35,197 bases of DNA from Oscillospiraceae bacterium. Lineage in GTDB: Bacteria > Bacillota_A > Clostridia > Oscillospirales > Oscillospiraceae. The notes below the pieces were generated by a model. That model did no database searches. It saw nothing but the letters and a program-made list of their open reading frames with translations, and had not been told where the DNA came from. The stretch spans positions 1 to 35,197 of the forward strand of contig JAFQHF010000133.1 of the NCBI GenBank assembly GCA_017398105.1, given 5' to 3'. A program made the position numbers and the translations under genes. This document shows, in pieces, positions 20,815 to 35,052 of this stretch; within the stretch, counting starts at the first letter, position 1; each line of letters begins with the position of its first letter.

Positions 20815-21759
20815 TCAGAACGTACAAACATCCGGCATGGCAGGCTCTGCGCCTTTGACCACCTGGATGGCAGTCAGCACGGGGCCCAGGTCGCCCTTGT
20901 ACAGCTTGTGCTTTTCCGCGGTGATCTTTGCCGTCACCATGACCCAGCTGCGTGACTCCAGAGAGGATGCCTGCTCATACCGGCAGGGAATGCCGCAGAA
21001 CTGGATATCGTCCACACAGCAGGTCATCACAAACCGGCCGGGGGCAAAAATGCCGTTCTTGTCCCGGCGGAGCATGGCCACCTGGGCCTTGAAGCAGACA
21101 GTCTTGCCGTCGTACTTTTCCGGCTCCTCGGTCACATCCCGGTACCAGATGGCATAATCGTCATCATTCACACAGATCACGGGAGCGTTGATGTCAAAGG
21201 GCAGCGGATCTTCGATCTCGTCAAACTCGGTGGTGCCGTCGGTGTAGTCATACAGAATATCAATACGGCGGGAGGCGGCTCTTGCCAGCTTGTGGAAGGG
21301 CATCACGTCCGCACCCTTTTCCAGGCGGTTGAAGACCACCATCTGAGCCCCCACCAGCTTGTCCATGACCAGGTTGCGCATATTGGCATTATAGGCCATG
21401 ATGGTGGTGGAATCGGCAAACATGACCTCCTGGGCCACCACCCAGCTTTCGGGGAACTTCATATACAGGTCGCCCACCTGCTGCATGCCGTTCAGCTCTG
21501 CCACAATGCGTTCTGCCTTGTACTTCTTCTGCAGGGCGGAAAGCTGCTTGGTGGTAACGGTCTGCTGATCCAGAACCTCGATATAAACGTTCTTGTGGGG
21601 ATAGGTGGACAGGTCGTACTCTTCCTCGCCCTCTTCAAACAGCAGTACCAGTGTCCGTTCGCCTGCGTTAAAGCGCTCATCCTCGAAGGTCTCCTGGATG
21701 AACTTGGTCTTACCGGAGTCCAGGAATCCGGTGAAGGAATAAACAGGAATCTGCTGCAT
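20815..21759 (-). CDS. CobW/COG0523-type GTPase fused to a TIGR03943-like domain
   Basis: 314 residues. The N-terminal half is a CobW-like P-loop GTPase with GFLDSGKT (about 10-17) and a possible base-recognition stretch VVFNRLEKG (about 140). It lacks the CxCC metal motif of true COG0523 members. The C-terminal part (about 215-314) with GRFVMTCCVDDIQFCG and WVMVTAKI resembles the TIGR03943/YcgQ domain, usually partnered with a permease. The role is likely metal handling, by inference. The start follows GGGGTG inside the end of the upstream GTPase gene, three bases away, so the two are one operon. Confidence 0.78.
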   Translation of the reverse strand: MQQIPVYSFTGFLDSGKTKFIQETFEDERFNAGERTLVLLFEEGEEEYDLSTYPHKNVYIEVLDQQTVTTKQLSALQKKYKAERIVAELNGMQQVGDLYMKFPESWVVAQEVMFADSTTIMAYNANMRNLVMDKLVGAQMVVFNRLEKGADVMPFHKLARAASRRIDILYDYTDGTTEFDEIEDPLPFDINAPVICVNDDDYAIWYRDVTEEPEKYDGKTVCFKAQVAMLRRDKNGIFAPGRFVMTCCVDDIQFCGIPCRYEQASSLESRSWVMVTAKITAEKHKLYKGDLGPVLTAIQVVKGAEPAMPDVCTF

Positions 21760-21762
21760 ATC

Positions 21763-23169
21763 TTACACCCCAAACAGGACGGCTACGCCCTTCTCGTCCA
21801 GGTTTGCGCCGATGACGCACAGCTTGCCGGTAATATCGGCGGAGCCGGAGCGGATATTGTATTCCTCAGGCACATAGTCAAAGTGAATCCAGCTGCCGTC
21901 ATTGGCCATCAGGATGCCCTTGGCACGGAGCACCATGCCATACAGGCCGCTGTCCAGCTGCTTCAGCGCCAGTTCGATCTTTGCGGGGTCAAACTTCTTG
22001 GCCGTCTCCACGCCCCAGGAGGTGAAGACCTCGTCGGCATGATGATGGTGATGGTCATGATCATGGCAGCCGCAGGTGCAGTGCTCGTCATGGTCGTGGT
22101 GATGATGGTGATGCTCATGGTCGTGGTCGTGACCGCAGCAGCACTCGCCTTCCTCATGGTGGTGATGGTGATGCTCGTGCTCATGGTCGTGGTGACCGCA
22201 GCAGCACTCGTCTTCCTCGTGATCATGATGGTGATGCTCATGATGATGGGCGCAGTGCTCTTCCTCCACATGGCCGTGGTGATGCTCGTGGCAGCCCTCG
22301 TCGCCGTGGTGATGGCCGCAGCATGCGCCGTCCTCGTGATGATGGTGGTGCTCATGATTGTGGTCGTGGCCGCAGCAGCACTCGCCCTCTTCGTGATGGT
22401 GGTGATGATGCTCATGGTCGTGATCGTGACCGCAGCAGCACTCGCCGTCCTCATGGTGATGGTGCTCATGCTCGTGCTCATGATCGTGGCAGCCGCAGGT
22501 GCAATGCTCGTCATGCTCATGGTGATGATGATGCTCATGCTCCTGCTGCAGCTTTGCCAGCTCCGCCGCCAGGGTGGCCTTGCCCTCCATGGCGTGCAGC
22601 AGCTGCTCACCGGTCAGGTGGCCCCAGGGGGTAGTGACGATGGTGGCAGCGGCATTGTGCTCTCTCAGCAGTGCAACGGCAGCATCCAGCTTGGCCTGGG
22701 GAATGGAATCGGTACGGGACAGGATGATGGTGGACGCGGTCTCGATCTGGTTGTTGTAGAACTCACCGAAGTTCTTCATATAGACCTTCACCTTGCCGGC
22801 ATCCGCCACAGCCACGGTATAGCCCAGGGTCACTTCCTCATTTGTAACCTTGTTCACAGCACCGATCACATCGGACAGCTTGCCCACACCGGAGGGCTCG
22901 ATGAGGATGCGGTCAGGATGGTACTGCTCGATGACCTGGGTCAGGGCCTTTCCAAAATCACCCACCAGAGAGCAGCAGATGCAGCCGGAGTTCATCTCGG
23001 TAATGTTGATGCCCGCATCCTGCAGGAAACCGCCGTCAATACCGATCTCACCGAATTCGTTCTCGATCAGAACCAGCTTCTGGCCGGCATAAGCCTCCTG
23101 GATCATTTTCTTGATCAGCGTGGTCTTGCCTGCACCCAGGAAGCCACTGTAAATATCAATTTTGGTCAT
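21763..23169 (-). CDS. CobW/COG0523 GTPase with a giant His/Cys-rich metal-binding insert
   Basis: 468 residues. COG0523 GTPases deliver zinc, cobalt or other metals to target proteins. The N-terminal G domain has Walker A GFLGAGKT (9-16), the CxCC metal site in NSGCICCS (about 61-68), and ILIEPSGVG (Walker B/switch). A spacer of about 172 residues (about 208-380) is almost all His, Asp, Glu, Cys and Gly, with four CCCGH and one CCGH blocks and two CTCGCH blocks. The C-terminal CobW domain follows (about 385-468). The insert is far longer than the usual His tract. AAGGAAAAAG lies upstream of the ATG. Confidence 0.92.
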   Translation of the reverse strand: MTKIDIYSGFLGAGKTTLIKKMIQEAYAGQKLVLIENEFGEIGIDGGFLQDAGINITEMNSGCICCSLVGDFGKALTQVIEQYHPDRILIEPSGVGKLSDVIGAVNKVTNEEVTLGYTVAVADAGKVKVYMKNFGEFYNNQIETASTIILSRTDSIPQAKLDAAVALLREHNAAATIVTTPWGHLTGEQLLHAMEGKATLAAELAKLQQEHEHHHHHEHDEHCTCGCHDHEHEHEHHHHEDGECCCGHDHDHEHHHHHHEEGECCCGHDHNHEHHHHHEDGACCGHHHGDEGCHEHHHGHVEEEHCAHHHEHHHHDHEEDECCCGHHDHEHEHHHHHHEEGECCCGHDHDHEHHHHHHDHDEHCTCGCHDHDHHHHHADEVFTSWGVETAKKFDPAKIELALKQLDSGLYGMVLRAKGILMANDGSWIHFDYVPEEYNIRSGSADITGKLCVIGANLDEKGVAVLFGV

Positions 23170-23453: not shown

Positions 23454-24614
23454 CTAATTGCAACGTTTTTCCAGCAATTCCATGCTTTCATAGACCTTAT
23501 CCATCACATTGTCCGTGTAAATGTTCGGCGTTGTTCTGGCATCGGAATGGCCCATCAGATACTGGGCAGACTTCACATCCATATCGGAAGAGACGCATTT
23601 GGTGCAGAAAGTATGTCTCAGTACATGGGGTGTGCACCGATTGATCTTCACTGCACTCACTTCATTGTAGTGGATCATCAGTTTCCGCACGACATCCGCA
23701 TATTCAGAATGGGTTCTGGGTCTGCCGTTCCGTGTCACGGAGAGAAATCCAACATAGCCATCAATCATCACATCCAGCTTGATCTCATTTCGCTTTCGGA
23801 TCAGATTCATGGCGCTCTGCCGAACCTCCTGAGTCATGGGAATATCCCGGACACCATTCTCGGACTTGGGCTTGGTAATGGTGAGCCTTCCTACCAGTCT
23901 GACGATCTGCTTGTCCACATGGATCACATTTCTGGCAAAGTCAACATCCTGGATGGTCAGAGCTGCAAATTCGCTAATCCGCATTCCAGTGCCTGCAAGG
24001 ATCACAAACATATCCAGGTGTCTCTTGCCGATGATATCTTCCCGCAGAAACTTCCAAAGGCTCTCCTGCTGGCTCTGTGTCAGTGCCCGTACTTTGGGGG
24101 TGTCATCATCAATAATGGTCTTGATGGGAAATGCGCAGGGATTTCGCATCAGTGCATTGTCCTCACAGGCCATCTGAAATGCCATTTTCAGAAGCGTATG
24201 GACAGAATTGATCGTTCCAAAGGCTTTCCCTTCATCATGGAGCTGAATCAGAAACTGCTTGCAGTCTGCTATCCGGATCCGGTTGATGGGCATATGATAA
24301 AGCTTGCTGGGCTTGATCAGACACAGATAACGCATCATGGTTTCCCGAGTGGAATCCCGCCACTTACGTTTCAAAGAAAATGCACGATCCAGAGCATCGC
24401 ACAACGGATCACAGCCGTCAAAGAAGCTGACACCCTCGTCCAGCTACTTCTGAATTTCCTTCTCCTTTTTACGCAGTTCATTCAGATCCCGGTCATAGAT
24501 GGTTTGACGTTTTCCGCTGATGTCCTCATACCGAAACTGGTATAAGCCATCTTTGCGTTCACTTTCTCCAGTGCGTAATACACGGCCCTTGCTGTCCTTT
24601 CTTCGTTCAGACAA
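23454..24614 (-). pseudogene. Tn916-family tyrosine integrase, interrupted by an in-frame amber stop
   Basis: From TTG 24614 (AAAGGAAG eight bases upstream) the frame reads SERRKDSKGRVLRTGESERK, the N-terminal AP2-like arm-binding domain of the Tn916 Int family, through LRKKEKEIQK. It then meets TAG at 24444-24446 and continues in the same frame as LDEGVSFFDG. The core-binding and catalytic domains downstream are intact: R in GTGMRISE, HVLRHTFCT, GHSDARTT and the Tyr of NIYTDN. Total is about 386 codons, near the family norm. The 316-residue distal part alone would lack arm binding. A sequencing error is possible but the frame is otherwise clean. Confidence 0.85.
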
Positions 24615-26010: not shown

Positions 26011-26925
26011 TTACTCTCCGCCCAGTTCCTTCAGAACTTCAGCCAGCATTTTGTTTCCCTGCTCAAAACAGGCAACGGCATCCATGACCTTCTGATAGGA
26101 TGCATGGCTTCCCGCTTCGTCCAGCTTTACAGCCAGGTCTGCCAATTCCCTGGCATGAGCTGCATTGTGGCCGGTCATGTACTTCATCAGAGCCAGCAGT
26201 TCCTCCATAGGAGTATGGCTGTGATGATGATCGTGTGCATGGGTATGCGTATGATGCTGATCATGGAAATGATGTTCGTGCATGGTTTCTGTCTCCTTTT
26301 CTTTTGTCACGTCTATATATTCCTGCCGGGACAAATCATAAATCCTGTCGGCAATTCTATTGGCTAAATGCCAGTTGTGGGTCACTGCGATGATGCCCAT
26401 ATTCCGCTTCTTTGCTTCCTCCAGAACCACATTCCAGATCTGAGCCTGGGTGATCACGTCCAGCATGGTACTGATCTCATCACAGATCAGATATTCTGCA
26501 CCGCTCATCAGGGCTCTTGCCACGCAGAACCGCTGCAGTTCGCCGCCGGACAGTTCTCTGGGAAACCGGTCAAGCCATGCTCTTTCGATGCCGAAGGCAT
26601 CCAGCACATCTTCCCGCATTTCGCCGCTTTCTTCCAGAACCCGCTTCAGTCTCCAGCGGGGATTGATGGCCTTTTCGGGATGCTGATAGATCAGCTGTAC
26701 CGGGCAGATACCCTTTTTCGGAAGAGGCTTTCCATCCAGAAGGATCTGACCTTCTGTGGGTTCCAGATACCCGGACATCAGCTTGACCAGCGTGGTTTTT
26801 CCGTAACCGCTGGGGGCAAACAGTGCAACACGCTCTCCGCGTTCCACACTGAGGCTGACATTTTCCAGAACAAAGGGTTCCTTCCGGTCATAGCGGAAGG
26901 CAACATTTTTCGCTTCAAGTGGCAT
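26011..26925 (-). CDS. Nik/Opp-type ABC transporter ATPase fused to a His-rich helical protein
   Basis: 304 residues. About 1-214 is an ABC ATPase of the NikE/OppF type: Walker A APSGYGKT (about 38-45), Q-loop IYQHPEKAINPRW, signature LSGGELQR, Walker B YLICDEIS and VTHNWH. In-frame it continues into MHEHHFHDQHHTHTHAHDHH and a helical domain (MEELLALMKYMTGHNAAHA...LAEVLKELGGE). An internal ATG at 26283 has AAAAGGAG nine bases upstream, so a separate 90-residue His-rich protein may also be made. The His tract points to nickel or cobalt cargo. It is the last gene of the importer operon and overlaps the gene before it by 11 bases. Confidence 0.85.
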   Translation of the reverse strand: MPLEAKNVAFRYDRKEPFVLENVSLSVERGERVALFAPSGYGKTTLVKLMSGYLEPTEGQILLDGKPLPKKGICPVQLIYQHPEKAINPRWRLKRVLEESGEMREDVLDAFGIERAWLDRFPRELSGGELQRFCVARALMSGAEYLICDEISTMLDVITQAQIWNVVLEEAKKRNMGIIAVTHNWHLANRIADRIYDLSRQEYIDVTKEKETETMHEHHFHDQHHTHTHAHDHHHSHTPMEELLALMKYMTGHNAAHARELADLAVKLDEAGSHASYQKVMDAVACFEQGNKMLAEVLKELGGE

Positions 26926-27850
26926 GGAAACACCTCACTTCTCCGCCCCGGACTTCTCTGGCGGGCGGAACCTGGTTTTGACACTGCTCCGTGGCATAGG
27001 GACATCGGGGCGCAAACAGGCAACCCTTCGGCAGATTACCGGCATAGGGTTGGAATCCCTCAATGGGCTGGAAGCCGTTCTGGGGCAGCGCTCTCCATAA
27101 GGCTTTGCTGTAAGGATGCCGCAGGGCCTCGGGGCCGATTTTGAAATCCTTCACAGGTGCAGTCTCCACCGTGGTACCGGCATAGAATACGGCTACCCGG
27201 TCCGCAAATTCAAAGGCTAGGTCAATATCATGGGTAATGAGGATGACTGCCTTGCCCTCATTGGCCAGTTCCCGAAACATCTGCAGAGCTTCCATTGCCT
27301 GGCCCAGGCTCATGCCGGGAGTGGGTTCGTCGGCAATAATCAGCTGGGCATCGGTAATCAGCGCTGTGGATACCAGCACCCGCCGAGCCATACCGCCGGA
27401 AAGCTGGAAAGGATAGAGATTTTCTGTTTTCTCAGGAAGTGCAAATCTCTTGAAGAGGCCTCTTCTTTTTTCTGTGGGATAAGGTTTCTTATGTCCGACC
27501 GCCTGCTTACCCACCTTCATCAGAGGGTCAAGAAAAGCAACGCTCTGGGGAACCAATGCAATTTCACTGCCCCGAAGAGACTTCTGCATTTGAGCGTTAA
27601 GTTCTTTGCCTTTGTAGTGCAGATGTCCCCTTACAGTAGCATTGCCCGGCAGGATGCCTAAGATGGCTGATGCCAGCAGGCTCTTGCCGGAACCGGAGGA
27701 ACCGGCCACTGCCACGATCTCACCGGGACGGACGGTTAAATGTAAATCGGAAATCACCTGTAGATCCTTCTGTTCCAGGGTTCCGTCATACATCCGGAAG
27801 GAAACAGACAGATCGTGAATTTCCAGTATTGTTTCGTTTTTTTGTTCCAT
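26915..27850 (-). CDS. Nik/Opp-type ABC transporter ATPase (NikD/OppD-like)
   Basis: 311 residues. It energises import with the ATPase above. Walker A GSSGSGKS (about 50-57), Q-loop LVPQSVAFLDPLMKVGKQ, signature LSGGMARR, Walker B LIIADEPT and switch ITHDIDLA are present. The C-terminal extension with GCLFAPRCPYATEQC matches the Cys motif of oligopeptide/nickel ATPases. AGGAGT lies seven bases before the ATG. The upstream permease gene ends four bases away. Confidence 0.93.
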   Translation of the reverse strand: MEQKNETILEIHDLSVSFRMYDGTLEQKDLQVISDLHLTVRPGEIVAVAGSSGSGKSLLASAILGILPGNATVRGHLHYKGKELNAQMQKSLRGSEIALVPQSVAFLDPLMKVGKQAVGHKKPYPTEKRRGLFKRFALPEKTENLYPFQLSGGMARRVLVSTALITDAQLIIADEPTPGMSLGQAMEALQMFRELANEGKAVILITHDIDLAFEFADRVAVFYAGTTVETAPVKDFKIGPEALRHPYSKALWRALPQNGFQPIEGFQPYAGNLPKGCLFAPRCPYATEQCQNQVPPAREVRGGEVRCFHAT

Positions 27851-27854
27851 AGTG

Positions 27855-28679
27855 TTACTCCTGTGCGCTGTAGGGATCCAGAATCATCCGAAGATTATCC
27901 CCCAGCTTATCCACCAGCAGGACGATCATCAGCAGCGTCAGTCCCGGGAAGACCGCAGGCCACCAGAGGCCGGCGGATAAGTAGTTCATACTTTCTGCCA
28001 GAATAATACCGATGGCAGGCTGGTCCGGAGGCAGGCCATATCCCAGGAAGGAAATAGCAGCTTCGTGCAAAATGGCATGAGGGAACATCAGTACCAGTCC
28101 CACAAAGAACTGGGGCACCAGATGTGGCAGCAGATGATTTACAAGGATCCAGCCGCTGGACTTGCCCAGTCGCCGGGATACGGCTACATACTGTTGGCTT
28201 CGAAGCTGCATAACCTCTGCCCGGATCAGTCGGGCCAGGCTGCACCAGTGGGTTGCGGCCACACCGATCAGCAGGCCCTTCAACCCTCTGCCAAAGGCAA
28301 CGGAAATCAGCATGATCAGAACCATGTGGGGTACACCCATCATCAGATCGATGACCCAATTGATAAAGCTATCCATTCTCCTGGAACCGGTAGCCGCTGC
28401 AATGCCTACAAAGACGGCTATCACAGCACTGATCACAGATGCAATCAAACCTACCGTCATACTGACGGACAGGCCTTTCAGCGTCCGGAAGAACAGATCC
28501 CGTCCCAGCGCATCGGTTCCGAAAAAGTGCTCCAGGGATGGTGGCAGTCTTGTACTGCGGATACTGGGTGCCGTTAATTCCTCCGGCAGCATCACACCAG
28601 CAGCATAGATTGCAATAAATGTAAGTGCCAGAATTACCGACAGAAGCACTACCCTGGTTCGTCTGTTCCATTTTGTCAT
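27855..28679 (-). CDS. Nik/Opp-type ABC permease (NikC/OppC-like)
   Basis: 274 residues. Inner-membrane permease with about six helices. HFFGTDALGRDLFFRTLKG (about 51-69) is the typical NikC/DppC start of the permease domain. The coupling (EAA-type) loop is seen in GVAATHWCSLARLIRAEVM, and the domain ends with GLTLLMIVLLVDKLGDNLR. Its ATG overlaps the stop of the other permease gene by four bases (ATGA), so translation is coupled. Confidence 0.93.
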   Translation of the reverse strand: MTKWNRRTRVVLLSVILALTFIAIYAAGVMLPEELTAPSIRSTRLPPSLEHFFGTDALGRDLFFRTLKGLSVSMTVGLIASVISAVIAVFVGIAAATGSRRMDSFINWVIDLMMGVPHMVLIMLISVAFGRGLKGLLIGVAATHWCSLARLIRAEVMQLRSQQYVAVSRRLGKSSGWILVNHLLPHLVPQFFVGLVLMFPHAILHEAAISFLGYGLPPDQPAIGIILAESMNYLSAGLWWPAVFPGLTLLMIVLLVDKLGDNLRMILDPYSAQE

Positions 28680-29671
28680 TGGGACACCTCCCGGATCTGA
28701 GGATCAATAATGCCGTAAAGCAGATTGGCAATCATATTGCCAATACAGACGAACAAAGCAGAAAACAGTGTTACGCCTAAAAGCAGCGGCACATCACACC
28801 GAAGACCGGCTGCAGATACAGCACTGCCAAGGCCGGGATAGCTGAAGACATTTTCCGCCATGACGCTGCCGCCGAAGAGTTCTGCAAAGGATGTAAACTG
28901 AAGGGTCAGCGCAGGAAGCAGGATATTCCGCAGACCATGCCGCCGCAGGATCGTCCATTTCCCCTCTCCCCTGGCCCGGGCAAAGAGGCAGTATTCGCTG
29001 CTGAGCACATCAATCAGCTTCTGACGGGTATGCAGGGCAATATTGGCAAAGGACATGAGGCTCAAGGTAAAGGCAGGCAGAAACAGATGGTGCAGCCGCT
29101 GGGCAAGAGTAATATCCTCTGAGCGGACACCGATAGGGCTGGAAAAACCTACCGGGAACCACCCCAGCTGTACCGCGAAAACCAGGAGGAACAGCAGGCC
29201 CAGCCAGAAGGTCGGAACGGAAGACAGCAGATAGCAGATCTTTTTCAAAATCTTATCCGGCCACTTCTCCCGGAACATTCCCATGATGCACCCCAAGGCA
29301 AAACCGATGATACCGGCAAAGAGCCAGGCACAGGACATCAGCGCCAGAGAATTGGCAAAACGCTCTGCAATCACGTCTGCCACCGGTCGACGGTAAATGG
29401 CGGAATGCCCCATGTCCCCTTTCAGCAAAGAGGTAAGCCAGTTGAAATACCGCTCCACTGGGGGTTCATTGACACCCCAGTACGCTTCCAGTTCTGCCCT
29501 CTGCTCTGCGGAGACCGCGGTACCCAGACTCATAATATACTGACTTACTGGGTCCACCGGAGAGGCACTGATCAAAGCAAAAGCAATAATACTGACTGCC
29601 AGCAGCAGGGAAAGGATCTTTATGGAGTTTTTCAGAAATATCGTTGTCAGTCGTTTCGTAGTTTCTTTCAT
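28676..29671 (-). CDS. Nik/Opp-type ABC permease (NikB/OppB-like)
   Basis: 331 residues from ATG 29671, which lies nine bases after AGAGG; an in-frame ATG at 29677 is only three bases from it. The family is plain from the N-terminal helix, VSQYIMSLG...YWGVNEPPVERYFNWL, GDMGHSAIYRRPVADVI and the loop YCLFARARGEGKWTILRRHGLRN. It ends with NMIANLLYGIIDPQIR, the usual end of DppB/NikB. It follows the binding protein gene after a 126-base gap that holds a perfect hairpin. Confidence 0.93.
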   Translation of the reverse strand: MKETTKRLTTIFLKNSIKILSLLLAVSIIAFALISASPVDPVSQYIMSLGTAVSAEQRAELEAYWGVNEPPVERYFNWLTSLLKGDMGHSAIYRRPVADVIAERFANSLALMSCAWLFAGIIGFALGCIMGMFREKWPDKILKKICYLLSSVPTFWLGLLFLLVFAVQLGWFPVGFSSPIGVRSEDITLAQRLHHLFLPAFTLSLMSFANIALHTRQKLIDVLSSEYCLFARARGEGKWTILRRHGLRNILLPALTLQFTSFAELFGGSVMAENVFSYPGLGSAVSAAGLRCDVPLLLGVTLFSALFVCIGNMIANLLYGIIDPQIREVSQ

Positions 29672-29757
29672 GGTCATGCGCCTCTTTCTATGTTGGCTAT
29701 CGGCAAAACACCTTATCAATGTTCTCCCGAAAGCCAGCAGATAAAATGATTCTCGAA

Positions 29758-29797: not shown

Positions 29798-31408
29798 TTA
29801 TGCTGTCCAGGTCCAGTCCTGGATATTCTGAAGAAACGGGAAATTGCTTCCGTGAGGATGAACATACTGATTACCAATGTTCAGACCATCCCGGATAAAG
29901 TATACATGATCCAGATTGACGATCCAGACCCAAGGGCACTGGCCGATCATAGCGGTACCGGTTTCGCCGTCCCACTGAACCTTCCGGAAATTCTCATAAG
30001 CTTCTTCCGGGGTCAGTGCCTGCCGGGCAGCTTCCAGATAACCATCGGTGACTTCACTCATGTGGCCTTCGGGGTTGTAGTAGTCATCCAGAAGAGCGCC
30101 CTTGCTTTGATACAGGAAATAGGTCTCGGAAGGATTGGCTGCACCCCAGCCCATCATGACCGCTTCCGAGAACATCCGCAAGCTAATCTCATCCCAGCTG
30201 AGGCCCTCGGGAATAACGTTGATGCCCACTTCCTTCAGAAGTTCCACACAGGCAAGCAATATTGCCTGCCGGGCAGAATCCCCGGCGGGATACATGCAGG
30301 TAAACTCCGCTTTCAGGCCGTCCTTCTCCACAATTCCGTCACCGTCAGTATCAACCCAACCGGCGTCACGAAGAAGCTGCTTTGCGTAATCCACATTGGT
30401 CTCAATTTTTACAGCAGGATTGTTCCAGGGCATACCGTCGTTTTCGGAGAATGCGGGAGTTGCATAGCCGTTCAATGCCACATCCGCAATCAGATTGCGG
30501 TCAATGGCATAGGCGATGGCCTGGCGGATTTCAATGTTGCAGGTAACGTTGTTGCCGATGGGTGCACCGTTCTGAGCTACCTTGCCTCCCGCAGGAAGCA
30601 CGGGCAGGGTGAATCCACGGCAGTCGGCGGTGGCAATTCGCTCAATGTGATAGCCGTTCACCTGGTTCACTGCCAGGGTCGCAGAGGTAATGGCTGCATC
30701 CACCTGTCCCGCCTGGACAGCAGCCAGAGAGGCATCCTCGCCCATGAAGACGATGACCACATTCTTGATGACGGGAACTTCCCCGTAGTAATTTTCGTTG
30801 GCTTCCAGAACCAGCTGCTCCTGGCTGCGCCACTCCACAAACTTGTAAGGGCCAGAGGTGACCGCAGGGTTCGTGCCGTAAGCTTCGGAGTAAGCATGTT
30901 CGGGAATCACACCCACAGAAGCCAGGGTATTCAGGAACCAGAAGGTGGGAGTGTTCAGCGTGATGACCACGGTAAAATCATCTTCCGCCACGGCACTGTC
31001 CATAAAAGTCAGATCAACAGAACCCATGGCAGTCTTGGCAGTTTCCAGAGTGAATGCAACATCATGGGCTGTGACCTGCTGGCCGTCAGTGAAATAGGCA
31101 TCCTCGCGGATTTTAAAGGTCCAGACCAGGCCATCCTCGGAAAGGTTGTATTCCGTGGCCAGATCGTTGACGAAGTTCATGTCCGCATCATACCGAACCA
31201 ACGTGCTCTGCATAATAGGGGCATTGCCATGGCCCCAACCTTTGGTGGGATCCAGAGTAGTCGGTTCATCGCCAATGGCAATAATGACGGTATCTCTAAC
31301 TTCAGAATGTGCTGCTTCTGCAACAGGTGCTTCTTTTGCTCCGCAGGCAACCATGCTCAAAACCATAACCAATATCATCAGCAATGCAGTCAGTTTCTTT
31401 CGGTTCAT
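29798..31408 (-). CDS. Extracellular solute-binding lipoprotein, family 5 (NikA/OppA type)
   Basis: 536 residues. It captures the substrate outside the cell for the importer. The signal peptide ends at VLSMVAC (Cys22, lipobox with Met at -3). The SBP family 5 pattern is seen in DEPTTLDPTKGWGHG, LVWTFKIREDAYFTDGQQVTAHDVAFTLE, AVTSGPYKFVEW, IRQAIAYAIDR and the C-terminal AYENFRKVQ. Whether it binds nickel, cobalt, a metallophore or a peptide cannot be read directly; the His-rich partner and nearby cobalamin genes favour a metal. AGGGGG lies seven bases before the ATG. First gene of the operon. Confidence 0.9.
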   Translation of the reverse strand: MNRKKLTALLMILVMVLSMVACGAKEAPVAEAAHSEVRDTVIIAIGDEPTTLDPTKGWGHGNAPIMQSTLVRYDADMNFVNDLATEYNLSEDGLVWTFKIREDAYFTDGQQVTAHDVAFTLETAKTAMGSVDLTFMDSAVAEDDFTVVITLNTPTFWFLNTLASVGVIPEHAYSEAYGTNPAVTSGPYKFVEWRSQEQLVLEANENYYGEVPVIKNVVIVFMGEDASLAAVQAGQVDAAITSATLAVNQVNGYHIERIATADCRGFTLPVLPAGGKVAQNGAPIGNNVTCNIEIRQAIAYAIDRNLIADVALNGYATPAFSENDGMPWNNPAVKIETNVDYAKQLLRDAGWVDTDGDGIVEKDGLKAEFTCMYPAGDSARQAILLACVELLKEVGINVIPEGLSWDEISLRMFSEAVMMGWGAANPSETYFLYQSKGALLDDYYNPEGHMSEVTDGYLEAARQALTPEEAYENFRKVQWDGETGTAMIGQCPWVWIVNLDHVYFIRDGLNIGNQYVHPHGSNFPFLQNIQDWTWTA

Positions 31409-31440: not shown

Positions 31441-31526
31441 AGTATACTTTATTCAAATAAAGCGCACAAGCCGGGTGGGGGGATATTTTTGATATATTTT
31501 TATCGATATCCCCCCTAGGGGGATAC
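31441..31526 (-). promoter_or_regulatory. Promoter of the metal importer operon with two C/G-dyad boxes
   Basis: TTGTGC (31464-31469), a 17-base spacer and TATACT (31441-31446). ATATCCCCCCACCCGGC (31470-31486) abuts the -35 upstream. A perfect palindrome TATCCCCC-CTA-GGGGGATA lies at 31507-31525. The style recalls C4-G4 operators of CsoR/RcnR-like metal sensors, but the regulator is not identified. The same 17-base box abuts both promoters at 32119-32233. Confidence 0.75.
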
Positions 31527-31536
31527 TGCTTTTTCA

Positions 31537-31575
31537 ACAAAAAGAACCCATGGGCCGTATGAAACAGCTCATGGG
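31537..31575 (-). terminator. Rho-independent terminator of the 31569-32087 gene
   Basis: On the minus strand CCCATGAGCTGT pairs with ACGGCCCATGGG (one mismatch, one wobble) around TTCAT, followed by TTCTTTTTG. The stem overlaps the stop codon. Confidence 0.8.
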
Positions 31576-32087
31576 ATCTCCTTTGAGATAATACTTGCCA
31601 GAACAATTCGGTATGCGGGATTATAAAAACGCCGGTATTGCTCACTGTGGGATACCATAGGATATCCCGCTCTTTTGTATTCTTCCAGATAGGCCTCTAG
31701 TTCTTCCAATGTGAATCCAAACGCACCGGAATCCGTGACCTTACGGAGAATTTCCAGTTTGATCAGAAAGCTATTTAGATTTCCTTTATGCGCTTCCGAA
31801 CTGCGGATAAAGTCATCGGCCAACTGTTGGATACTATAATCGCTGCTATCGATAGCATTGAGCATTACCCGTACAAGGCCGTTGCCAATGCTTTCCAGAA
31901 GCGGTGCGTGAAGATCCTGGGGTGTAAATTCATACTCCCGCTGCAATGCATTGCGGCAGCTTGTAGGATCCCGGATCAGATGTCCTCCCCCGAATACATT
32001 TTGATAGATTAGTTTCACCGCATCTGTCGGCTGCATCATGGGATATTTCCGGGCATGCCGCCGTAACACCTGTTCCAGGTTTTCCAT
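31569..32087 (-). CDS. Conserved-looking protein of unknown function
   Basis: 172 residues, soluble and mostly helical. The start is marked by GTAGAGGTGG just upstream of the ATG at 32087. A distinctive stretch is MMQPTDAVKLIYQNVFGGGHLI (about 17-38), rich in Gly and His, and there is a Tyr/Arg-rich end (SEQYRRFYNPAYRIV). I recall similar uncharacterised proteins in gut Firmicutes, but no function. It is transcribed away from the kinase gene at 32257. Both promoters share the box found at the metal importer promoter. Confidence 0.75.
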   Translation of the reverse strand: MENLEQVLRRHARKYPMMQPTDAVKLIYQNVFGGGHLIRDPTSCRNALQREYEFTPQDLHAPLLESIGNGLVRVMLNAIDSSDYSIQQLADDFIRSSEAHKGNLNSFLIKLEILRKVTDSGAFGFTLEELEAYLEEYKRAGYPMVSHSEQYRRFYNPAYRIVLASIISKEIP

Positions 32088-32118
32088 CTAACCACCTCTA
32101 CGCTTTCTCAGTGGGATT

Positions 32119-32164
32119 ATTGTATCATAGGGTTTTGCAGTACAGAAGCCCCCTATAGGGATAT
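32119..32164 (-). promoter_or_regulatory. Promoter of the unknown protein gene with ATATCCC box
   Basis: TTCTGT (32142-32147), a 17-base spacer and TACAAT (32119-32124) on the minus strand. ATATCCCTATAGGGGGC (32148-32164) abuts the -35. Confidence 0.65.
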
Positions 32165-32187
32165 TCTGTACTGTTATTTTGCATATC

Positions 32188-32233
32188 ATATCCCCCGGTG
32201 GGGCTTGCGGGCAGAGCATTGAGCCGATACAAT
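32188..32233 (+). promoter_or_regulatory. Promoter of the P-loop kinase gene with ATATCCC box
   Basis: ATATCCCCCGGTGGGGC (32188-32204) abuts TTGCGG (32205-32210), then a 17-base spacer and TACAAT (32228-32233). The layout is the mirror image of the promoter at 32119-32164. Confidence 0.68.
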
Positions 32234-32256: not shown

Positions 32257-32814
32257 ATGAACAGATTAATCACCGTACAAAACGCAATTCAGCAGTTGCT
32301 CTGCCAAAAAGAAACTGTGATAGTGGCTATAGACGGCAACTGCACATCCGGAAAAACTACACTGGCAAATCAGCTTGCTGCAAATTATGATTGCAATGTA
32401 TTCCATATGGATGATTTCTTCCTCCGCCCGGAACAACGCACTGCGGAACGTTTTACTGAGATCGGCGGCAATGTGGACTATGAACGATTCAACCAAGAGA
32501 TTCTGCTTCCTCTGAAATCCGGTAAGCCCTTTTCTTACCGGCCATTCGATTGCGGCACCTTCCAATTGACGGATCCGGTTTCGGTCATGCCCAAGAAACT
32601 GAACATCGTTGAGGGAACCTACAGCTTGCATCCATACTTTCGAGATGTCTATGATCTGAAGATCCGTCTCACTATTTCACCAGAATTGCAGCGCCAAAGG
32701 GTTCTGGAAAGGCCAGAATTCCTTCATCAACGGTTCTTTGAGGAATGGATCCCTATGGAGAACCTGTATTTTGAAGGCTTTGCTATTTCTGAAAAGTGTC
32801 ATATTATACTATAA
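32257..32814 (+). CDS. P-loop kinase, uridine kinase-like
   Basis: 185 residues from ATG 32257, six bases after AAAGGAGAGG. The P-loop is GNCTSGKTT (about 24-32). HMDDFFLRPEQR (about 49-60) matches the uridine kinase/phosphoribulokinase substrate loop, and VEGTYSLHPYFRDVYDLKI matches the Walker B region of that family. The substrate is not known; a nucleoside or vitamin-like alcohol are options. It ends in a bidirectional terminator. Co-regulation with the importer is suggested by the shared promoter box. Confidence 0.85.
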   Translation: MNRLITVQNAIQQLLCQKETVIVAIDGNCTSGKTTLANQLAANYDCNVFHMDDFFLRPEQRTAERFTEIGGNVDYERFNQEILLPLKSGKPFSYRPFDCGTFQLTDPVSVMPKKLNIVEGTYSLHPYFRDVYDLKIRLTISPELQRQRVLERPEFLHQRFFEEWIPMENLYFEGFAISEKCHIIL

Positions 32815-32858: not shown

Positions 32859-33398
32859 TTATGGAATGCATTGATACCCATGATCTTTGATCATATATCC
32901 ACAGCCATTTTTCGGCTGCCAGTCATAGCGGGTTTTGTTTTCTTCCGGAAACAGGTGTTCCATGATGGCTGCAATGACACCGCCGTGGCAAACGATTACA
33001 GTATCCTCTTTGATCTCCAAGAAGGCTTCCAGAACACGCTGCTTCATCTGTAGGCCGCTTTCGCCGTTGGGTGGAACATTGGCTTCGTTGTCGCCTGTGC
33101 ACCAGATCTGATAGGCAGGGTTATCTTTCAGTTCCTCATAGCTGTGCATTTCGAAATCACCGAAGTCTACTTCCCGGAAGCGAGAATCCTCTTCATAAGC
33201 TACATCGCCAAACAAAACCTTTAAAGTTTCATTTGTCCGCGACCTGCCACTGGTAAGGAAGCGGACATTTTGGATGTCATAGGGAATCCGCCGCAGTTCT
33301 TCCCGGCCCTTTTTCGACAAGGGTAGATCCGTACTGCCGCAATAGAGCCATTTTTCATTGGCTTCTGTTTTACCATGGCGAATCAGATAAATGATCAT
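32859..33398 (-). CDS. cobC: Histidine phosphatase, probable alpha-ribazole phosphatase
   Basis: 179 residues from ATG 33398. The histidine phosphatase signature is YLIRHGKTEANE (about 4-15), with the second catalytic His in VCHGGVIAA (about 138-146) and the acid in the REVDFGDFE region. In cobalamin synthesis CobC removes the 5'-phosphate from alpha-ribazole phosphate or cobalamin phosphate. Assignment rests on the cob operon; the family alone is broad. Its ATG overlaps the short cobU-like gene by four bases. Confidence 0.83.
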   Translation of the reverse strand: MIIYLIRHGKTEANEKWLYCGSTDLPLSKKGREELRRIPYDIQNVRFLTSGRSRTNETLKVLFGDVAYEEDSRFREVDFGDFEMHSYEELKDNPAYQIWCTGDNEANVPPNGESGLQMKQRVLEAFLEIKEDTVIVCHGGVIAAIMEHLFPEENKTRYDWQPKNGCGYMIKDHGYQCIP

Positions 33399-33757
33399 TT
33401 TATTCTCTGCTCCAATCCGCAGAAGATTCTGCTGACCTGAGCTGCTTCCGCTGCCAAGTACTGGCACAGCCGCCCGGTTTTCTGCCTCCAGGCCCGGTTT
33501 TCCTCTCCCATGGGAACCACACCGCAGAAGATATCCTGGCAGATCAGAATGCTGTTTTCCCAGTCTGTTCGGTTGGCTTTGAAATAGCCGATCGGGTCGG
33601 GATGATGATAGGTAAACTCTTCGAGTTTATAGATGCACTGTTGGGAGAAGTCGATTTCCCCTGTGGTGCAGGTATAGATTTTCTCTTCGGTGATTCCATA
33701 CTGATTTTGGGCGAAATCCAATTTCCCCTGATAGGCGCCGCCGATAATCAGAATCAT
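33395..33757 (-). CDS. Short degenerate CobU-like protein
   Basis: 120 residues, against about 180 for CobU. The N-terminus MILIIGGAYQGKLDFA keeps the shape of the CobU P-loop (GGxxSGKS) but lacks its Ser/Thr after Lys. The middle of CobU is missing. The C-terminal part CGVVPMGEENRAWRQKTGRLCQYLA matches the conserved CobU end (the V/IVP...R..GR..Q.LA pattern). It may be a non-kinase partner or have only one of the two CobU activities. GGAGGG lies seven bases before the ATG. It lies between cobS and cobC. Confidence 0.8.
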   Translation of the reverse strand: MILIIGGAYQGKLDFAQNQYGITEEKIYTCTTGEIDFSQQCIYKLEEFTYHHPDPIGYFKANRTDWENSILICQDIFCGVVPMGEENRAWRQKTGRLCQYLAAEAAQVSRIFCGLEQRIK

Positions 33758-33769
33758 GTCATTCCCTCC

Positions 33770-34510
33770 TCAAATCAATGCATAAACAGCTGCGGCGCAG
33801 AGTTCTGCAATACTTAAGGAATAACCGGAAATATCACCGTTCATGCCTTCCAGAGACCTGTAAGCCTTCCACAAAGCAATGCTATACCCCACCAGACATC
33901 CCACAAGCACAAAACCATAGTGACCACAGCACAGGAATCCTGCTGTGACAAAAAGGGCCGTCATGGATATCAGAATCACGATATGAGATTTCGGCTTTTT
34001 CTGATCTGCATATTGACTGGTATTCATAGGTTTCAGTGCTGTCACCGCCAGAGCGCTGCAGCAGCGGCTGACGGCAGGCACAAAGAGCAGAATCCGAAAA
34101 TCCGCTTTATCTTTGACAGATGCCATAAATGCAAACTGAGCAAGGAGCAGCAGAGCAATTCCGATCACGGAAAAAGCACCCACATGGGAATCTTTCAGAA
34201 TTTCTCTCCGACGTTCCAGACTGCGATAAGACTTCACCGCGTCCGTCACATCCATATAGCCATCCAGATGAATAAAACCGGTGACCAGATAAGGATAGAC
34301 TGACAGGATCAATCCCTTTACCAGAACCGGCAGATTCAACACATTACTGAGCCAGGCAAGGAGTGCCCAGATCCCACCGATTTCCAATCCAACGATCGGC
34401 AGGAACAGCAGCATCTTATCCCTCGCCTTTTCATCCCAGATATTACCGGGAAAGGGAACAGAACAGAACATACTCTGGCACATGGCAAACGCATGAAAAT
34501 ACGTTTTCAT
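33770..34510 (-). CDS. cobS: Adenosylcobinamide-GDP ribazoletransferase (cobalamin synthase)
   Basis: 246 residues, the usual length. CobS joins AdoCbi-GDP with alpha-ribazole(-phosphate) in the membrane, closing the nucleotide loop. The N-terminus FHAFAMCQSMFCSVPFPG and the acidic motif GFIHLDGYMDVTDA (about 78-91) are family marks. KDSHVGAFSVIGIALLLL follows. About six hydrophobic helices are visible. The ATG overlaps the cobU stop by four bases. Confidence 0.95.
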   Translation of the reverse strand: MKTYFHAFAMCQSMFCSVPFPGNIWDEKARDKMLLFLPIVGLEIGGIWALLAWLSNVLNLPVLVKGLILSVYPYLVTGFIHLDGYMDVTDAVKSYRSLERRREILKDSHVGAFSVIGIALLLLAQFAFMASVKDKADFRILLFVPAVSRCCSALAVTALKPMNTSQYADQKKPKSHIVILISMTALFVTAGFLCCGHYGFVLVGCLVGYSIALWKAYRSLEGMNGDISGYSLSIAELCAAAVYALI

Positions 34511-35052
34511 AGCTGCAATTCCCCCTTATGTACGATGTATTGACCTGCGGATACTTCCACAACCGTGTCACAGACCTGTGCCAGCCGTCGGTCAACATCT
34601 GCAAGGCATCTGCGGTATTTTTCCGTAGATTCCGAATACACTTCCGCATCGGAATAAATGTAGTCACTGACAAAAATTGCATGTCTGACCTTATCTACAA
34701 ATTCCACCAGTTCATCAGCACATCGTTTTGCGGCATCCAGATCCAGTTCGTAGTTTTTTTCTGCCGGAAACAGAGAATTCTGCAGCAAAGCCGTCACGCT
34801 GTCCACCAGAAATGCCCCAGCTGCATCTGCCGTTTCCAGGCAGTCCAGAATGTTTTGGAAGCATTCTACGGTTTCAAAACCCATTCCGTCACGGTCAGCA
34901 ATGTGCCGCCGGATGCGCTCATCGTCTTCTTTTCCGGAGGATATCATGGTAGCAACATAGTAATGTTTTCCGCCATCCGCCAAGGCCACCGTCAGATTCT
35001 GGGCCAGGGTGGATTTTCCGCATTTGGCACCGCCGGAAATAAAGTAGGTCAT
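34507..35052 (-). CDS. cobU: Adenosylcobinamide kinase / AdoCbi-phosphate guanylyltransferase
   Basis: 181 residues, full length. CobU phosphorylates adenosylcobinamide and then attaches GMP. The P-loop GGAKCGKS (7-14) is intact, followed by HYYVATMISSGKEDDERIRRHIADR, the substrate-binding region with the conserved His of RRHIADR. The C-terminal half (FVSDYIYSDAEVYSESTEKYRR) is divergent from the standard VTNEVG...VP segment, which instead appears in the short gene at 33395. ATGA overlap with cobT upstream. Confidence 0.92.
   Translation of the reverse strand: MTYFISGGAKCGKSTLAQNLTVALADGGKHYYVATMISSGKEDDERIRRHIADRDGMGFETVECFQNILDCLETADAAGAFLVDSVTALLQNSLFPAEKNYELDLDAAKRCADELVEFVDKVRHAIFVSDYIYSDAEVYSESTEKYRRCLADVDRRLAQVCDTVVEVSAGQYIVHKGELQL

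Follow-up and report, generated by a model that had tools for sequence, protein, structure and literature searches.

The importer operon and three boxed promoters of the window

The window, i.e. the whole 35,197-bp stretch of DNA analysed here, carries a five-gene operon of the NikABCDE/Opp type encoding a substrate-binding protein (SBP), two permeases and two ATPases (Table 1). The importer genes reached no NCBIfam cut-off, and the substrate is therefore not settled by those models. The second ATPase contains a His-rich stretch and a C-terminal domain, and its C-terminal part had no Pfam match. A pair of genes for CobW-family GTPases, of which one has a DUF1980_C domain, lies upstream of the importer region and forms another metal-homeostasis locus near the importer. 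Between them and the importer there is a gene for a Xer-type tyrosine recombinase, given which the importer segment may be an insertion. On the other side of the importer are two separate, divergent genes, each with its own box, encoding a 172-aa protein (UP172) and a P-loop kinase (KIN), and beside the kinase gene are cobalamin genes (alpha-ribazole phosphatase type, CobU types and CobS).

Table 1. Positions of genes, boxes, promoters and other features in the window
Feature	Position	Strand	Remarks
CobW-family GTPase genes (two)	20815-23169		One with DUF1980_C domain
Xer-type tyrosine recombinase gene	23454-24404
Importer ATPase 2	26011..26925	(-)	His-rich stretch and C-terminal domain (about 26014-26214)
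Importer ATPase 1	26915..27850	(-)	ABC_tran and oligo_HPY
Importer permease 2	27855..28679	(-)	BPD_transp_1
Importer permease 1	28676..29674	(-)	BPD_transp_1
Substrate-binding lipoprotein	29798..31408	(-)	SBP_bac_5, Nik/Opp type
Importer core promoter	31441..31469	(-)	−35 TTGTGC 31464-31469; 17-bp spacer; −10 TATACT 31441-31446
Importer box	31470-31486	(-)	ATATCCCCCCACCCGGC; C-run/ACCCGG sub-class
Second dyad	31507..31525	(-)	TATCCCCCTAGGGGGGATA; ~40 bp upstream of importer box
UP172	31569..32087	(-)	172 aa; N-terminal half of fused protein in relatives
UP172 core promoter	32119..32147	(-)	−35 TTCTGT 32142-32147; 17-bp spacer; −10 TACAAT 32119-32124
Inverted repeat around UP172 box	32137-32174		CAGTACAGAA...TTCTGTACTG
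UP172 box	32148-32164	(-)	ATATCCCTATAGGGGGC
KIN box	32188-32204	(+)	ATATCCCCCGGTGGGGC
KIN core promoter	32205..32233	(+)	−35 TTGCGG 32205-32210; 17-bp spacer; −10 TACAAT 32228-32233
KIN	32257..32814	(+)	P-loop kinase, uridine-kinase type; C-terminal half of fused protein in relatives
Cobalamin genes	32859-35052		Alpha-ribazole phosphatase type, CobU types, CobS

A preliminary description of this DNA had placed one box at the promoters of the importer, UP172 and KIN, each copy ending where the −35 starts and each promoter having a 17-bp spacer, and all three were recovered at these places. The exact pattern ATATCCC-N7-GGC occurs three times on both strands of the window, always at these promoters and not before the cobalamin genes, against a chance expectation of 0.12 on average and at most 2 in 300 first-order resamplings of the window. 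When two mismatches are allowed, the pattern is weakly enriched (52 seen versus 38.3 expected), so that the signal lies in the exact form and the position of the box. The further dyad that had been claimed for the importer promoter is also present and represents a possible second operator. A perfect 10-bp inverted repeat surrounds the UP172 box and covers its −35 too; it was seen neither at the importer box nor at the KIN box.

Conservation of the box in related genomes

The genome closest to the window among 22 compared was G001 (Rex protein, 76%), and its family supplied a set of 300 genomes. The importer SBP was detected at E ≤ 1e-120 in 27 of them. The box precedes a −35 and a −10 in 13 of the best 16 SBP places (L074-L089), the best spacer being 17 bp in 10 of these and 18 bp in 3. 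Two other orthologues (L085 and L088) have no box in 330 bp upstream, and the sequence of L080 stops 82 bp upstream of the SBP gene. No box was seen at 11 lower SBP places (43-45% identity), where the gene seems to follow closely behind other coding sequence. Three exact sites in the window against 0.12 expected, together with conservation at the importer orthologues, place the shared position of the box beyond chance. The possibility raised beforehand, that the box would prove not to be conserved in relatives or would fall at random places, is thus contradicted at the importer, but no box was found at UP172 in the 56 loci of relatives that were read.

Nine importer leaders (L074-L079, L082, L086 and L071) share, between the −10 and the SBP start, a conserved element, GCCCCGG-(C)TGGCTGGCACCAA-CCGGGGC-GCCGACC...AAAGGCAGGC...ATTATACAC..CCTGCC, which is possibly a metal-responsive RNA. 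Rfam gave no relevant match for it in the four of its nine carriers searched, and it was not seen in the importer leader of the window. The boxless orthologues L085 and L088 have another leader stretch in common, TTTAGCCACGAAGG...GAAC...GTGG.

A search for box plus promoter in 19 genomes with UP172 relatives gave 10 matches versus 7 control hits and is mostly noise. Two of the 10 fall on one 4.5-kb contig of genome G014 on which four boxed promoters were read by eye, before an SBP gene, a MATE gene, a gene for a small protein and at one further place. A looser pattern applied to 98 relatives of G014 was likewise mostly noise (30 places among the matches listed versus 15 control hits); in G046, the box precedes genes of FecB-type SBP, permease, ATPase and FmdE type, named by eye except for FmdE. 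With the pattern ATCCCC-N7-GCTT-N21-TANNNT and no mismatch, 30 places were found in 19 genomes versus 0 control hits, these genomes having been chosen for importer or UP172 hits and part of the 30 places being importer-orthologue promoters. Across the family, this pattern matched in 122 of 300 genomes versus 7 control hits (table count), and the analysis of the promoters covers 150 of the listed places, from 88 genomes. The notion that three similar C/G runs came to lie near promoter-like sequences by chance could draw on the weak enrichment of the relaxed pattern in the window, but it is refuted by the exact count, the orthologue conservation and the family-wide matches, and its probability is negligible.

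Association of the box with a CsoR/RcnR-family regulator

In genome G185, a cluster of boxes lies divergent to genes for a His-rich protein and a CsoR-like regulator (L133). This regulator belongs to PF02583 (E 5e-27, 94.5 bits, cut-off 22.8), as does a box-adjacent protein at L206 (96.8 bits, same cut-off), and its nearest solved structure is InrS (5fmn, E 6.6e-19). A search with it gave a match at E ≤ 1e-6 in 223 of the 300 family genomes. Pairing boxes and regulators by eye among the matches listed, we found that at least 19 genomes have a box no more than 1 kb from the gene of a CsoR-like protein, where random placement would give about 0.31. The box precedes the regulator match on its own strand by 74-151 bp in ten of them, a placement as for autoregulation.

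Box and regulator also co-occur. At E < 1e-18, a cut-off chosen after viewing the list, the regulator is present in 98 of 122 box-positive versus 30 of 178 other genomes (odds ratio 20, Fisher 5e-29, kinship ignored) and in 46 of the 48 genomes with two or more box hits. This leaves 24 box-positive genomes without a close regulator and 30 regulator-positive genomes without a box. The Cys-His-Cys ligands are retained in 21 of 22 box-flagged regulators, which have N-terminal His residues, often many; the exception, at L223, keeps the first Cys and lacks the His and the second Cys. The comparison included a reference row for RcnR.

No CsoR-like regulator gene was found in the 35,197 bp of the window. 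The C-terminal domain of the second importer ATPase is related to His-rich proteins near CsoR-like genes in three genomes (G185, G260 and G140), a resemblance that is an independent tie between the window importer and the regulator. A NikR regulon was considered and rejected, since NikR_C was detected in only 1 of 300 family genomes versus 5 of 14 named control genomes, and NikR is thus nearly absent.

Another candidate regulator is a LysR-type protein encoded behind a box in genome G119 (L137), where an HTH_1/LysR_substrate gene has the box upstream and importer genes follow. The dyad can also be read as a T-N11-A LysR box. A gene of this type was noticed beside a box in one genome, however, set against PF02583-type genes that stand beside boxes in many genomes and co-occur with them, which makes this reading highly improbable.

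Box adjacency, autoregulatory placement and co-occurrence with CsoR/RcnR-family genes strongly support the single regulator proposed in the preliminary description. Its hint at CsoR/RcnR-like sensors was right as well: the box is tied to genes of this family, and its two-tract shape matches type 2 operators as published in PMC3902906. Its reservation about the usual overlap of such operators with the core promoter counts for little, given that the box extends with its right half into the −35. We therefore regard the box as the probable operator of an InrS-type CsoR/RcnR (PF02583) metal sensor, placed at the upstream edge of the −35, with a probability of roughly 0.8; the identification of operator and regulator, taken on its own, is very probable.

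Box architecture and register with the −35

Over 150 listed places, the consensus reads ATCCCCC(C/G)GGGGGGCTTG(C/T)G, of which ATCCCC and GCTT, as well as the TA...T of the −10, are imposed by the search pattern. The box is a pseudopalindrome of two C/G tracts with an AT-rich left end, and in promoter sites its right end is the CTTG of the −35. A sub-class, ATCCCCCCACCCGGCTTG, resembles the importer box of the window, and the middle of the importer-type sub-class, CCACCCGG, occurs 8 times among the 150 places. The −35 starts with TTG in 100 and ends with ACA in 2 of the 150, and an extended −10 (TGn) is present in 68. If the reading is correct, the promoter code is precise, with a C-run followed by GGCTTGYG and, across 17 bp, by the −10.

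Because these patterns force the register, the bare dyad was searched for with no promoter condition in 40 genomes (2 control hits); all of them were box-positive, and the result is hence about register and not frequency. Among 65 dyads, including two symmetric ones read on both strands, CTT begins precisely 15 bases after the start of the dyad in 34, irrespective of G-run length, versus 0-5 dyads for any other offset from 13 to 44. The best −10 is at 17 bp in 28 of the 34 in-register dyads, 20 of them with no more than one mismatch from TATAAT, and the remaining 31 of the 65 dyads are out of register. A site at fixed distance that touches a poor −35, as found here, is the arrangement of class II activator promoters. 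The symmetric TAT/ATA form of the box is rare and does not exceed the control (7 places in 4 of 40 genomes versus 8 control places in 2 genomes). A second GGGG-AT half-site follows downstream of the −35 in 12 of 151 promoters, in most cases within the spacer; shuffling gave 1.7 on average and 7 at most.

Genes behind the box

The first downstream gene was read, mostly by eye, for 81 box places. These genes include Nik/Opp-type SBPs and permeases, FecB-type SBPs, PF02583 regulators and CbiM-like genes (L153, L165, L220 and L222, PF01891 being confirmed for L222). Also behind boxes are genes for His-domain proteins (L219 and L220), a MinD/CooC-like ATPase (L220), a MATE transporter, YezD-like proteins (DUF2292), WPIKL-type proteins and many class I methyltransferases, and the cluster at L136 contains a cobaltochelatase-type gene whose TIGR02442 match is below its cut-off. 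A few boxes stand before unrelated genes or none, and these may be chance. The small WPIKL-type protein (...WPIKL...APYFHNAHLLIAADC...) recurs behind boxes or within box clusters (L133 7519-8046, L132, L037 and L255); the L133 copy matched no Pfam family, and, having Cys residues, the protein may bind metal.

This inventory bears on the possibility that the regulator acts as a classical de-repressor, repressing as apo-protein until released by metal or by another inducer (copper, persulfide), with the boxed genes serving detoxification or chelate handling. Such a scheme would be the standard CsoR/RcnR mechanism with its autoregulation, and the MATE transporter and the methyltransferases would suit it. 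Many of the recognisable targets are, however, importers of the CbiM, NikABC and FecB types, and no Ni/Co exporter was recognised by eye among the 81 first genes, so that we consider this scheme quite unlikely.

Proposed mechanism and sign of regulation

In the mechanism that we favour, the InrS-type regulator would bind the box and, with its His-Cys-His-Cys ligands, sense Ni(II) and/or Co(II), thereby tying Ni/Co acquisition to metal supply in bacteria mostly without NikR. Described members of the CsoR/RcnR family lose DNA affinity on binding metal, according to PMC7055735 and PMC7689651, and useful control of importers would therefore need activation by the apo form. There is one reported case in point: InrS is reported in PMC7055735 to bind upstream of nik and to enhance the nik operon, as well as repressing an exporter. 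Activation by the apo form agrees with the fixed register in which the box meets a poor −35. Less certainly, with about an even chance, apo protein bound beside the poor −35 (TTGYGN) might activate and metal would release it, so that the importers would operate under metal scarcity. This switch would, in the window, govern the NikABCDE-type importer and, divergently, the UP172 and kinase halves.

The activator sign is held at about evenly balanced because downstream half-sites suit repression and extended −10 elements are common. A downstream half-site would cover the core promoter, an extended −10 could compensate for a poor −35, and the poor −35 may perhaps be solely a consequence of operator overlap. 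The same regulator could accordingly work with the opposite sign, its metal-loaded form binding the box and repressing importers by covering the −35, in a NikR-like logic. Import control of this kind would be sensible, and the right half of the box running into the −35, the half-sites downstream of it and the frequent extended −10 would all suit it. The loss of DNA affinity with metal described for the family (PMC7055735 and PMC7689651) speaks against it, as does the single fixed register to the −35, which is needless for a repressor site, and we regard it as rather unlikely. The complete form of the favoured mechanism can be put forward tentatively, at slightly less than even odds: in gut Oscillospiraceae without NikR, an apo-activator sensor of the CsoR/RcnR family would bind a composite operator/−35 and assist RNA polymerase, and Ni(II)/Co(II) would turn off NikABCDE, FecBCD-type and CbiM importers together.

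Comparison with known metal sensors

InrS, the Ni(II) sensor of Synechocystis, is the nearest solved relative of the L133 regulator and has Cys-His-Cys ligands and N-terminal His in common with the box-flagged regulators. In the system described here, by contrast, the operator recurs at many importer promoters in a single fixed register relative to the −35, the regulator's own gene is often boxed too and no exporter target was recognised. The CsoR type 2 operators of S. lividans, B. subtilis and others likewise have two short C/G tracts around one centre, set there between AT-rich ends; the consensus given in PMC3902906 has TAC/GTA ends, compared with a TAT-like left end and the CTTG of the −35 on the right here, and those operators control copper efflux, whereas the targets here include importers. 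With the Ni/Co de-repressors RcnR and DmeR, the regulator has PF02583, the Ni/Co setting and autoregulation in common (PMC7689651); they differ in having exporters as targets and, for RcnR, a single G6 tract (PMC7055735 and PMC3902906). NikR controls the same kind of importer, NikABCDE, through a different protein family and operator.

The CsoR/RcnR family and its type of operator are already known, as is one instance of enhanced import. As far as our literature search goes, a family-wide import regulon that has its operator built into the −35 and takes in CbiM is new. According to a 2021 review (PMC7689651), control of a cobalt importer by a protein-based cobalt sensor had not been found up to then. 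With CbiM-type genes behind a CsoR/RcnR-type operator in several genomes, a single protein and a single promoter would be enough to test this question. If true, the proposal would establish a family-wide import regulator among proteins otherwise known for controlling export and, with CbiM as a target, a cobalt importer under the control of a protein sensor. The analysis also yields a map of the metal-acquisition regulon for a large and mostly uncultured group of gut bacteria, and hints at Ni/Co-linked roles for the unnamed proteins UP172-kinase, the His-domain protein, the YezD-like proteins and the WPIKL-type protein.

UP172 and the kinase

UP172 belongs to no family in Pfam or NCBIfam, and its predicted structure, a confident model, shows no clear match to a known fold. 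The best NCBIfam match of KIN is PRK06547, below its cut-off. Relatives of UP172 were detected in 47 of the 300 family genomes. In 28 of 30 loci from these genomes, UP172 and the kinase share an open frame as one fused protein, the frame having been read through in five of these; no kinase match was found beside UP172 in the other two, one of which is in G001. A further 26 GTDB loci encode relatives with 38-56% identity, and the kinase adjoins UP172 in 14 of them. These gene arrangements leave no doubt of a link between UP172 and KIN.

The functional link between importer, UP172 and KIN suggested in the preliminary description stood in part. No box was seen in the 220 bp upstream of UP172 in the 26 GTDB loci (read by eye) or before UP172 in the 30 loci from family genomes, so that the inclusion of UP172 and KIN in the metal regulon depends on the two boxes that they have in the window. 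In favour of the link are the fusion of the two proteins in relatives and an ECF S-component gene (PF12822) found in 27 of the 56 UP172 loci, a homologue of which is part of box operons in two further genomes (L173 and L174). In these operons, the box is followed by a methyltransferase gene and then by that of the ECF S-component.
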